64,000 nt of DNA, from positions 124,001 to 188,000 of the forward strand of contig NZ_JAHVAA010000015.1 in assembly GCF_019264485.1 (NCBI RefSeq), written 5' to 3'. This document shows positions 6,247 through 57,227 of the stretch, piece by piece. The number at the start of each line of letters is the position of its first letter. Position 1 is the first letter of the stretch. Position numbers and translations under genes: made by a program. Source of the DNA: Sediminibacterium sp. (GTDB taxonomy: Bacteria > Bacteroidota > Bacteroidia > Chitinophagales > Chitinophagaceae). A model generated the notes under the pieces. It had not been told where the DNA came from, ran no database searches, and was given only the letters and a program-made list of their open reading frames with translations.

Positions 6247-6327
6247 AACAGAGGAACAGAGAAACAGAGGAATATCCAATGTCCAAATTGGGAGTTGGAT
6301 ATTCCTCTGTTTCTCTGTTCTTCTGTT
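6247..6327. repeat. 26-bp perfect inverted repeat after cphA
   Basis: Arms 6254-6279 and 6295-6320 are exact complements (26 of 26), and extend to about 33 bases with one mismatch. The arms are repeats of the word ACAGAG/GAACAGAGAA followed by GAATATCCAA. The loop is 15 bases. It begins six bases after the cphA stop and may end or stabilise that transcript. A diverged copy in opposite orientation is at 24002-24060, sharing the 17-mer TTGGGAGTTGGATATTC. Confidence 0.85.
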
Positions 6328-8579: not shown

Positions 8580-8648
8580 TAGGGGTTAGAGGTTAGGCGT
8601 TAGGAGGAAAAAATATATTATTGACAAACACCTAACCTCTAACCCCTA
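8580..8648. repeat. palindrome of GGTTAGAG words
   Basis: Arms TAGGGGTTAGAGGTTAGG (8580-8597) and its exact complement (8631-8648), 18 of 18 paired, built from the repeated word GGTTAG. It lies just past the stop of the YceI gene and may end its transcript. Confidence 0.8.
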
Positions 8649-18522: not shown

Positions 18523-19115
18523 AAATGGATATAATTGGTCTCTTTAAAGATATTAATTCAATGGAATGATCGAATTAAAATGTATGAAGGGTTAGAAAGT
18601 GCTCGGCTGAGCTGCTCACAGGCGGTATTACCTGTAAAAACAGCAGCTATGGTCAGACCCATGTAATCAGCCTTTTACCTGTACAGTTTTTTAGTACAAG
18701 ACATCGGAAACTGGAGGGAGATGGTCCGTACCATGACCGTACCATGTTCGGGGTTTCTTCGAGGTTTCTTCGGGAGTTCTTCGGGAGTTCCCGAAGAAGT
18801 TCCGAAGCGGCTTCGGGAAAATCCGAAGAAACCCGGTAGCAGGTACGAAGTAAACCCGGCCCAAATACGGCTATGATTCGACCCCGGTACGAATAAAAAA
18901 CCTTGTCTTCTACTGAAAAGCTTTACTGATGCTAGGCATATTACTGCCAGGACTTTACAGTCATTTGTTCAGCATCAAGAATATCTACTTCTGTACCACT
19001 GTAAACTACCCTTGCAACTGTTCTTCTGAACATAGCAAATGACCGTTTATTGAATTCTGAAACTTACCAGCAGATGGTTCAAGTAATTTGAAGGATAAAG
19101 TTCAATGGTAAGATT
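18523..19115. other. 593-bp intergenic region with a branched palindromic element
   Basis: No gene seen. The centre holds the multi-hairpin element at 18722-18895. The flanks contain nothing I recognise beyond the signals expected for the genes on either side. Confidence 0.6.
18722..18895. repeat. branched palindromic element (TTCTTCGGG words)
   Basis: An outer perfect 11-bp stem, GGGTTTCTTCG (18751-18761) with CGAAGAAACCC (18824-18834), encloses a 9-bp hairpin TTCTTCGGG/CCCGAAGAA (18777-18798, loop AGTT) and a 6-bp hairpin CCGAAG-CGG-CTTCGG (18802-18816). Upstream CCGTACCATG occurs twice (18726 and 18737), and GGTACGAA occurs twice downstream, able to pair with CGTACC. It could be a structured RNA or a mobile palindromic repeat. 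Confidence 0.65.
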
Positions 19116-22560: not shown

Positions 22561-22628
22561 ATGTGGCAATTGAACGATAAATATAAGTACAATTATAAAG
22601 TAGGCTTAGAATGAAGCATTTATTTATA

Positions 22629-22677
22629 TAGCCACAGATTCACAGATTAGTTCGCGTAATCTGTGAATCTGTGGCTA
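22629..22677. repeat. perfect 21-bp palindrome (CCACAGATT family)
   Basis: TAGCCACAGATTCACAGATTA (21 of 21 paired; the arm is split in mind as TAGCCACAGATT and CACAGATTA) with a 7-base loop. The same sequence forms the palindrome at 28566-28616, and half copies occur at 25841 and 26450. It lies between the VOC gene stop and the namZ start, on the 3' side of the operon. Confidence 0.85.
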
Positions 22678-22692
22678 ATCAAATCCTGGCTA

Positions 22693-27450: not shown

Positions 27451-27565
27451 TTTTTCCCCTGCGTAAACTCCGCGTTCTCTCGTTCTCTGCGGTGGAATTC
27501 CTCACGTCACCCTGACGAAGGAAGGGACCGCAGAGAACAAGAGGGTGCAGAGATTATCCGCAGAG
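27450..27565. repeat. palindrome with GTTCTCTGCGGT core
   Basis: GTTCTCTGCGGT (27482-27493) and its exact complement ACCGCAGAGAAC (27527-27538) form the core; flanking CGTTCTCTC words pair with AAGAGGG. It lies between convergent genes. The inner sequence CGTCACCCTGACG is a smaller dyad. Confidence 0.7.
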
Positions 27566-28537: not shown

Positions 28538-28565
28538 TGGCTCTCTTACTTTAAAAGAAATGATG

Positions 28566-28616
28566 TTAGCCACAGATTCACAGATTAGAAAAAGTAATCT
28601 GTGAATCTGTGGCTAA
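28566..28616. repeat. perfect 22-bp palindrome (CCACAGATT family)
   Basis: Arms at 28566-28587 and 28595-28616 are exact complements, with a loop GAAAAAG. The same arm occurs at 22629-22677. It lies between convergent VOC and rmlD genes, downstream of both. Confidence 0.85.
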
Positions 28617-28633
28617 CTTATACTACACAATTT

Positions 28634-30498: not shown

Positions 30499-30540
30499 GG
30501 TCCATAGTTGATGGTCCATGGACCATGGTCTATTGACTAT
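30499..30540. repeat. GGTCCAT palindrome at the ugd stop
   Basis: ATGGTCCATGGACCAT is a perfect 16-bp palindrome inside a longer imperfect one (CCATAGTTGATGG / CCATGGTCTATTGACTAT). The TAG stop codon of ugd is formed by its right end (CTATTGACTATTT, read on the minus strand). Shares this tail with 39372-39387. Confidence 0.8.
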
Positions 30541-36422: not shown

Positions 36423-36438
36423 GATGATGGCAGACATT

Positions 36439-36482
36439 AGATGTCAGATAGCAGATTTATTTGAAATAAATATCTGACATCT
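36439..36482. repeat. palindrome of ATCTGACATCTG words
   Basis: AGATGTCAGATA (36439-36450) pairs exactly with TATCTGACATCT (36471-36482), around a TTTATTT-g-AAATAAA inner stem. A related copy is at 53722-53785. It sits between convergent genes. Confidence 0.78.
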
Positions 36483-36500
36483 GCGATCTGACATCTCCTA

Positions 36501-39303: not shown

Positions 39304-39343
39304 GAGCTAATCGTTTTTGTTTTTGACGTTTATTGTATAGCAG

Positions 39344-39387
39344 ATAGTCGATAGACCATAGTCCATGGACCATGGTCTATTGACTAT
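39344..39387. repeat. GGTCCAT palindrome at the ccmD stop
   Basis: ATAGTCGATAGACCAT (39344-39359) and ATGGTCTATTGACTAT (39372-39387) pair at 15 of 16 positions around AGTCCATGGACC. The last bases CTATTGACTATTT encode the TAG stop codon of ccmD. Same tail as 30531-30543. Confidence 0.82.
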
Positions 39388-39599
39388 TTGCTTTTCTCCA
39401 GTTTACTGATCTTACGGTCGAGGCTTGCTACATAGATGAAGAGTCCGGCAACAATGGTAATTACCACCGCCATGACTACATAAATCTTTCCGTTACTTCT
39501 CATGATATCTGTTTCTGCTGCTACTTCCTGTGCCGAAGCTGAGGTGGTAAGAAATAATGCGAACAGTATAAAACTTATTCTCTGCAGTAATTTATTCAT
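39384..39599 (-). CDS. ccmD: CcmD-family small membrane protein
   Basis: 71 residues: signal-like start, then one membrane helix (KIYVVMAVVITIVAGLFIYVASL) and a charged C-terminus (RKISKLEKSK). This is the layout of CcmD proteins, which help CcmC/CcmE in haem delivery. It overlaps the ccmC end by eight bases. Small size and family match are moderate evidence; the ccmC neighbour makes it convincing. Confidence 0.78.
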   Translation of the reverse strand: MNKLLQRISFILFALFLTTSASAQEVAAETDIMRSNGKIYVVMAVVITIVAGLFIYVASLDRKISKLEKSK

Positions 39600-54810: not shown

Positions 54811-54861
54811 ATAGTCCATGGTCGATAGTCCATAGTTTATGGACTATCGACCATGGACCAT
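54811..54861. repeat. GGTCCAT palindrome, 24-bp arms
   Basis: ATAGTCCATGGTCGATAGTC plus CATA (54811-54834) pairs at 23 of 24 positions with 54838-54861, loop GTT. It begins 11 bases after the pssA start side and ends four bases before the pepP stop. Same family as 30499, 39344 and 57183. Confidence 0.85.
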
Positions 54862-57182: not shown

Positions 57183-57227
57183 GATAATAGACCATGGCCC
57201 ATGGACCATGGACCATGGTCTATTATC
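57183..57227. repeat. GGTCCAT palindrome, 15-bp perfect arms
   Basis: GATAATAGACCATGG (57183-57197) and its exact complement (57213-57227) enclose CCCATGGACCATGGA. It lies between the convergent coiled-coil and PorP genes, six bases before the PorP stop. Confidence 0.85.

Follow-up and report, generated by a model that had tools for sequence, protein, structure and literature searches.

An intergenic palindrome of Sediminibacterium sp. composed of two converging arrays of 11-bp-phased TTCG words

Described repeat families and the architecture of the palindrome

Several described systems share features with the palindrome studied here. Iteron and centromere arrays, such as the 11-bp direct repeats of R1 parC, are bound by an oligomer, and cyanobacterial STRRs are arrays of short tandem words. 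A REP sequence is a palindrome that carries a GTAG or CGTC tag at one of its ends. According to the accessible part of PMC3733652, REPs measure 20–40 bp. BrickBuilt of Porphyromonas gingivalis is a MITE with an internal array of 23-nt direct repeats and with terminal inverted repeats that resemble those of known IS elements (accessible part of PMC4596501). Heptamer arrays (TAACTGA repeats), whose function is unknown, occur in Beggiatoaceae, Cyanobacteria and some Bacteroidetes (accessible part of PMC4679880).

The palindrome lies in a 593-bp gene-free gap (18523–19115) between two divergent genes of the window, that is, the whole 64,000-nucleotide stretch of Sediminibacterium sp. DNA that was analyzed. 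It had been predicted from its letters as a branched palindromic element, with RNA folding proposed as a check. The palindrome in the gap was confirmed: its stems were exact at the predicted positions (Table 1), and the 221-nt region folded at −89 kcal/mol, versus a mean of −66.1 (s.d. 4.4) for 200 shuffled sequences, none of which folded as well (z = −5.23). The branched shape held up in its perfect stems but not as the sole best fold. Specifically, the fold of 18758–18838 constrained to these stems and the unbranched optimum both reached −42.2 kcal/mol. The branched form is thus one of two equal-energy drawings of the same palindrome.

A better description of the palindrome is a pair of arrays of the 11-bp unit TTCG-N7, placed head to head and converging on a centre. 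The 11-bp phase extends from 18725 as far as about 18900 and includes a single 10-bp step. The same words return across the palindrome because of this underlying phase, and the element can form hairpins because its arms are inverted (TTCG facing CGAA). At up to two mismatches, TTCTTCGGGNNTTC occurred 16 times in the window versus 4.4 expected, and six of the 16 occurrences were within the element.

Table 1. Features of the palindrome and its surroundings, in window coordinates
Feature	Position	Strand	Description
Tricorn/S41-peptidase-domain gene	start 18522	−	left neighbour of the gap
IS-like end CTGTACAGTTTTTTAGTACAAGACA	18679..18703	+	resembles IS3-type right end; tip points into array
Whole element	18704..18903	none	200 bp; 11-bp-phased units in two converging arms between IS-like tips
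Left arm	18725..18790	+	six 11-bp units by phase
Left-arm words			in order TCCGTACCATG, ACCGTACCATG, TTCGGGGTTTC, TTCGAGGTTTC, TTCGGGAGTTC, TTCGGGAGTTC; two outer ones degenerate
Flanking word CCGTACCATG	18726 and 18737
Predicted branched fold	18763..18833	none	outer stem enclosing 9-bp and 6-bp hairpins
Outer stem	18763–18773 with 18823–18833		perfect, 11 bp; GGTTTCTTCGG with CCGAAGAAACC
Hairpin 1	18777–18785 with 18790–18798		perfect, 9 bp
Hairpin 2	18802–18807 with 18811–18816		perfect, 6 bp
Right arm	18791..18900	−	CGAA-type words at 18792, 18803, 18824, 18846, 18890
Right arm, degenerate words	18857, 18868, 18879		CGGC, CGGC, CGAC, by phase
Right arm, irregularities	18835; 18824		no word at 18835; 10-bp step precedes 18824
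Flanking word GGTACGAA	18842 and 18886
Outer word CATAGCCGTA	18866..18875	−	also in elements C13:11494 and C3:1411
IS-like end TGTCTTCTACTGAAAAGCTTTACTG	18904..18928	−	like end, inverted orientation; tip points into array
Second, weaker end-like repeat	18935..18960	−	31 bp further out; 7 mismatches to 26-base end
Beta-lactamase-domain gene	start 19116	+	right neighbour of the gap

The phase was evaluated in 78 distinct matches of a palindromic pattern with two words per arm. Words beyond the matched part lay at 11–88 bp in steps of 11, numbering 31, 26, 13, 12, 5, 5, 6 and 6 at successive distances on the left side and 30, 31, 10, 7, 7, 7, 5 and 8 on the right; other distances yielded 0–3. Each arm held words of its own orientation only. 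For 79 of the 84 arms with at least four words, an opposite arm lay no more than 120 bp away, a count in which many loci had been fetched by a pattern needing both arms.

Compared with the described families, the element matches none in full. Like REP, BIME and REPIN sequences with their RAYT (TnpA-REP), which are IS landing sites in some genomes, the arrays are scattered, intergenic and palindromic; at about 130–250 bp of 11-bp units, they do not fit the REP length. They share with the heptamer and STRR arrays, as far as the accessible source describes them, short intergenic words and a patchy spread that includes Bacteroidetes. However, heptamer arrays repeat an entire 7-bp unit in direct orientation, whereas here the period is 11, the word alone is constant and the arms are inverted. 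The units are also not near-identical: 76 distinct spacers were found in 111 units of nine arrays in Parapedobacter lycopersici (G431), and the 15 units of the own genome contained 13. Iteron and centromere arrays similarly place short words about one helical turn apart but are single loci beside the gene of their binder, whereas the present elements are scattered and inverted. Among the systems found, BrickBuilt is the nearest described relative in style: as the accessible part of its description has it, it too is non-coding, dispersed, from Bacteroidota and built around a repeat array, and it differs from the window-type element in the latter's 11-bp units, constant 4-bp word, opposed arms and at most putative terminal repeats of its own. 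Among the titles and abstract openings listed in a literature search, in which few subscription papers were covered, none described such phased arrays.

Conservation of words and spacers in dispersed copies

The own genome contains four such elements: the window copy and those at C13:11494, C8:265511 and C3:1411. The first two align in the same order, the secondary hairpin included. G428, a Chitinophagaceae MAG, has ten copies that align from end to end between unrelated flanks; two of these are incomplete, and some common sequence continues past one end in L405 and L406. The complete copies measure 129 bp from the first to the last word and show no length differences. Because the search that yielded these copies demanded five phased words, intact words are over-represented among them; in the eight complete copies (excluding L399, with a run of N, and L403, at a contig end), 0 of 48 word columns varied versus 37 of 81 spacer columns (p = 6e-10). 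Similarly, in the right arm of seven copies, additionally without L407 (end mark), 0 of 24 word columns and 16 of 41 spacer columns varied (p = 2e-4). By eye, the spacers change in blocks. A DNA search of the same MAG independent of the words recovered the same ten copies and one further long copy that had lost some words; its 19 rows included five opposite-strand matches of counted arrays, and three matches of 27–29 bp were set aside. What is retained in these copies is the word together with its phase rather than a helix, in view of the spacer pairing given below.

The one-turn phase, the invariant words and the free spacers led us to propose a row of protein contacts. Opposed rows, dispersal of whole copies and decay of words in an old copy in turn point to a non-autonomous mobile element with several sites per end. 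Our preferred reading, at a probability of roughly 0.5, is that the palindrome is a dispersed, non-coding, MITE/REP-like DNA element with protein-docking words that is moved by a transposase. Judging from the dispersal of its copies, the element has probably spread as mobile DNA.

Such arrays could also be neutral products of slippage and template switching, akin to short tandem word arrays and without a protein partner. The window does have palindromic word arrays of other periods, so a general repeat-making process may exist, and the heptamer arrays cited above occur in some Bacteroidetes as well. However, slippage should alter the number of units and strike words and spacers alike, whereas the eight complete copies in G428 are of one length with unchanged words and differing spacers, and dispersed copies have common ends. 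We consider this origin improbable.

The original prediction had offered a structured RNA or a mobile cloverleaf-like repeat. The repeat half was borne out by the four own-genome elements and by the ten copies in G428 with common ends and unrelated flanks, which suggest movement; the RNA half was not. A structured RNA, terminator or attenuator with a branched or long hairpin fold would suit the fold score (z −5.2) and the innermost spacers (unit 1), which complement each other at 4.7 of 7 positions versus 2.9 in the control (81 elements). Further out, the values were 3.2 versus 2.6 (n = 20); for unit 3, 4.4 versus 2.6 (n = 10); and for the outermost spacers measured, 3.0 versus 3.2 (n = 3). 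Pairing near the centre of the element may therefore matter. Nevertheless, left and right spacers in seven G428 copies paired in 98 of 196 cells, and only 1 of 28 spacer column pairs covaried. A conserved RNA helix is unsupported because the spacers do not covary; the word pairs never vary and are therefore uninformative on compensatory change. The four Rfam matches of the window element were all below gathering scores, and the branched and unbranched folds do not differ in energy. Further, the window element lies between divergent genes, arrays overall are not enriched at gene ends, and arrays with a single long arm exist (L193 and L194). The RNA reading was rejected on covariation, placement and Rfam, although complementarity of the inner spacers does exceed the control. 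The palindrome is unlikely to be a structured RNA, and a role as terminator or attenuator is very improbable.

Distribution and genomic context

The palindromic pattern with two words per arm matched at least 118 stretches in a species-genome collection. Among the matches listed, many were from Bacteroidota and others from Gemmatimonadota, with single ones from Actinobacteria and elsewhere. The Gemmatimonadota loci (e.g., L036, L068 and L096) had short palindromes of the form TTCGG-N6-TTCGG, in which the spacers are A/T-rich and each arm has few words. Within the order of the window, the strict pattern was found in 2 of 393 genomes, its own included, and the reversed control in none. Five words in phase on one strand occurred in 16 of 29 genomes chosen as element carriers (L106 left out), for which the reversed control gave 1 match in all; the maximum was 144 matches, in P. 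lycopersici. At the window locus itself, the neighbouring peptidase gene has a homologue in 24 of 61 same-genus genomes, the closest of which (74% identity) has a different upstream sequence. Three words in phase were present only at the window's own locus among 30 peptidase-homologue loci fetched.

Viral contigs held at least 120 stretches with TTCG words in 11-bp phase. By eye, the arrays among the matches listed were mostly direct repeats without an opposite arm, and they look like replication iterons. The words in 11-bp phase are thus not unique to the Bacteroidota elements. Several of the viral arrays (L218–L337) lie beside A/T-rich short repeats. A phage origin of the palindrome was rejected: the palindromic pattern was found in three viral stretches only, and the window element had no match in 50,697 phage records. 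It likewise had none in 72,556 plasmid records.

The placement of arrays relative to genes was evaluated using simple ORF calls as genes, leaving out arrays without two flanking ORFs and setting L002 and L003 by hand. Of 60 arrays so placed, 35 were in tandem, 17 in divergent and 8 in convergent gaps. The background of 43 array-free long gaps comprised 20, 17 and 6, respectively. Arrays therefore occur in every gene orientation, in a distribution resembling the background. An association with promoters had been considered from a first count of 24 loci (12 tandem, 10 divergent, 1 convergent and 1 unclear), in which ORFs ran through arrays; the larger count with its background ended it. Judged from their translations, the genes beside arrays are diverse.

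One orthologous spacer in Parapedobacter, bounded by genes that we take to be a HesB/SufA-like gene and ileS, contains a TTCG array in P. lycopersici, none in P. soli, and an 11-phased TTACC array in P. defluvii (L394:13094-13291 and L373), with GGTA-type words on its opposite arm. These data bear on whether the arrays are sites for a host DNA-binding protein, either a regulator or a nucleoid protein, that would place one subunit per helical turn and act where the arrays lie, the arrays having no mobility of their own. Phase and invariant words suit protein contacts, and arrays often lie upstream of genes, ileS among them. Yet the neighbours are diverse, the orientation classes are as in the background, presence varies between species at this one spacer, and dispersal of whole copies with common ends needs a copying step. 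Such a host-protein role is unlikely.

A more general proposal, which we advance tentatively, is a class of mobile elements across Bacteroidota whose main constrained feature would be a 4–5 bp word that recurs with each helical turn along two converging arms. These would form a candidate docking array for a recombinase, in which the spacers change freely and the word varies with the species (TTCG, TTACC) while the 11-bp phase is kept.

Insertion-sequence tips and the proposed mobile element

Both outer edges of the window element carry IS-like ends (Table 1), and the weaker repeat beyond the right one parallels the arrangement at an end in another genome (G429; L416:1132-1189). Of 67 arrays, six had tips of the type CAGTACAAGACA (at most one mismatch; seven matches) no more than 80 bp away and pointing into them, versus about 0.02 expected by our arithmetic, although the motif had been spotted by eye in some arrays beforehand and some counted loci had been fetched with it. 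The six arrays are those of the window, L062, L109, L401, L405 and L436, from three genomes only; array spans were set by hand for L436, with a hand-set fallback for L002 and L003. Owing to the degenerate words in the outer right arm, this count scored the window's right tip as far. L418 contains a full element bounded by these ends; of its two reading frames, one encodes an rve integrase domain, and its right end adjoins another 11-phased repeat. On account of this domain, the pair of frames and its TG...CA termini, we read it as probably of IS3 type. Fragments of about 63 bp of its right end, without its genes, were observed at L416, L417 and L419 in G429.

The tips face inward, and the array therefore lies outside the IS. 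We take the tips to mark use of the array as a landing site by the IS rather than to be the element's own ends. An IS3-type IS may thus have inserted at array edges and left end fragments, which is compatible with our preferred reading. The tip frequency and the L418 element are consistent with such landing, and REPs are described as IS targets (accessible part of PMC1525189). However, the count carries the selection given above, most arrays are without tips, the window's right tip counted as far, and the window's ends are diverged. Indeed, the 26-base end was absent from the own genome at up to three mismatches, from which this divergence is concluded, and no transposase matched there at E 1e-40. 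Landing at array edges is possible, although we hold it only with caution.

Known modes of mobilization were compared with the arrays. Eight of 13 array genomes, among them the one richest in arrays, lack the RAYT domain (Y1_Tnp, PF01797), and the single RAYT-type gene of the own genome is flanked by other repeats. Mobilization by RAYT was therefore rejected. This gene (L030, G000:C11:31609) stands beside several copies of the palindrome CCCGGATTGAAATCCGGGG and variants. As in MITEs, the ten copies in G428 are short, non-coding and dispersed and have common ends. With regard to terminal inverted repeats, the IS3-like tips seen at 6 of 67 arrays face inward, which places the array outside the IS. 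For a target-site duplication, no clean junction or empty site was found: the copies differ in their flanks, and the empty spacer in Parapedobacter has diverged too far for a junction to be seen. The elements thus agree with MITEs in part only, and with REP/RAYT not at all in the feature tested.

For the preferred reading, a transposase-moved element with docking words, we propose the following mechanism. Each TTCG word would be the putative contact of one DNA-binding protein subunit, and one contact per helical turn would place all contacts on one face of the DNA. The inverted arms would then be two ends that a transposase, most likely, or a recombinase joins when it copies or moves the element; once words are lost, a copy would stop moving and decay. 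The hairpin may matter as DNA during replication, for which a transcript would be unnecessary. In the sequence searched, neither an autonomous element with its arms split around a gene nor a cognate transposase was found. Two long TTCG arrays of G010 (L202 and L010/L011), which lie 234 kb from each other, match over 230 bp in inverted orientation at 88%, with a central 126 bp identical in direct orientation, which we read as a likely exchange of arms between the two copies.

If the mechanism holds, a widespread intergenic repeat of Bacteroidota has a readable grammar of constant word, 11-bp phase and two arms. Such a grammar would suggest that protein docks on a single face of the DNA and would help in the search for the protein. 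Rearrangement endpoints such as the G010 exchange would be explained too, as might IS landing sites.

Other periods occur in the own genome, where 10 of the 13 palindromic arrays that passed the filter in the 224 kb examined had a period of 7, making it the commonest. This period is unexplained by the model of one contact per turn, and these arrays may be a separate matter. Palindromes of 7-bp-phased words of the CATAGTC/CATGGTC type lie in the window at 39339–39392, 54811–54861, 57183–57227 and 30500–30540, and at other sites of the own genome. Palindromes of tandem words of about 7–9 bp were also observed in the window at 6247–6327, 8580–8648, 22622–22684, 28565–28617, 27464–27556, 36426–36495 and 621–702, with words of the CAGAG, GGTTAG, CACAGATT, CTCTGCG, ATCTGAC and CTTTCGGT types.
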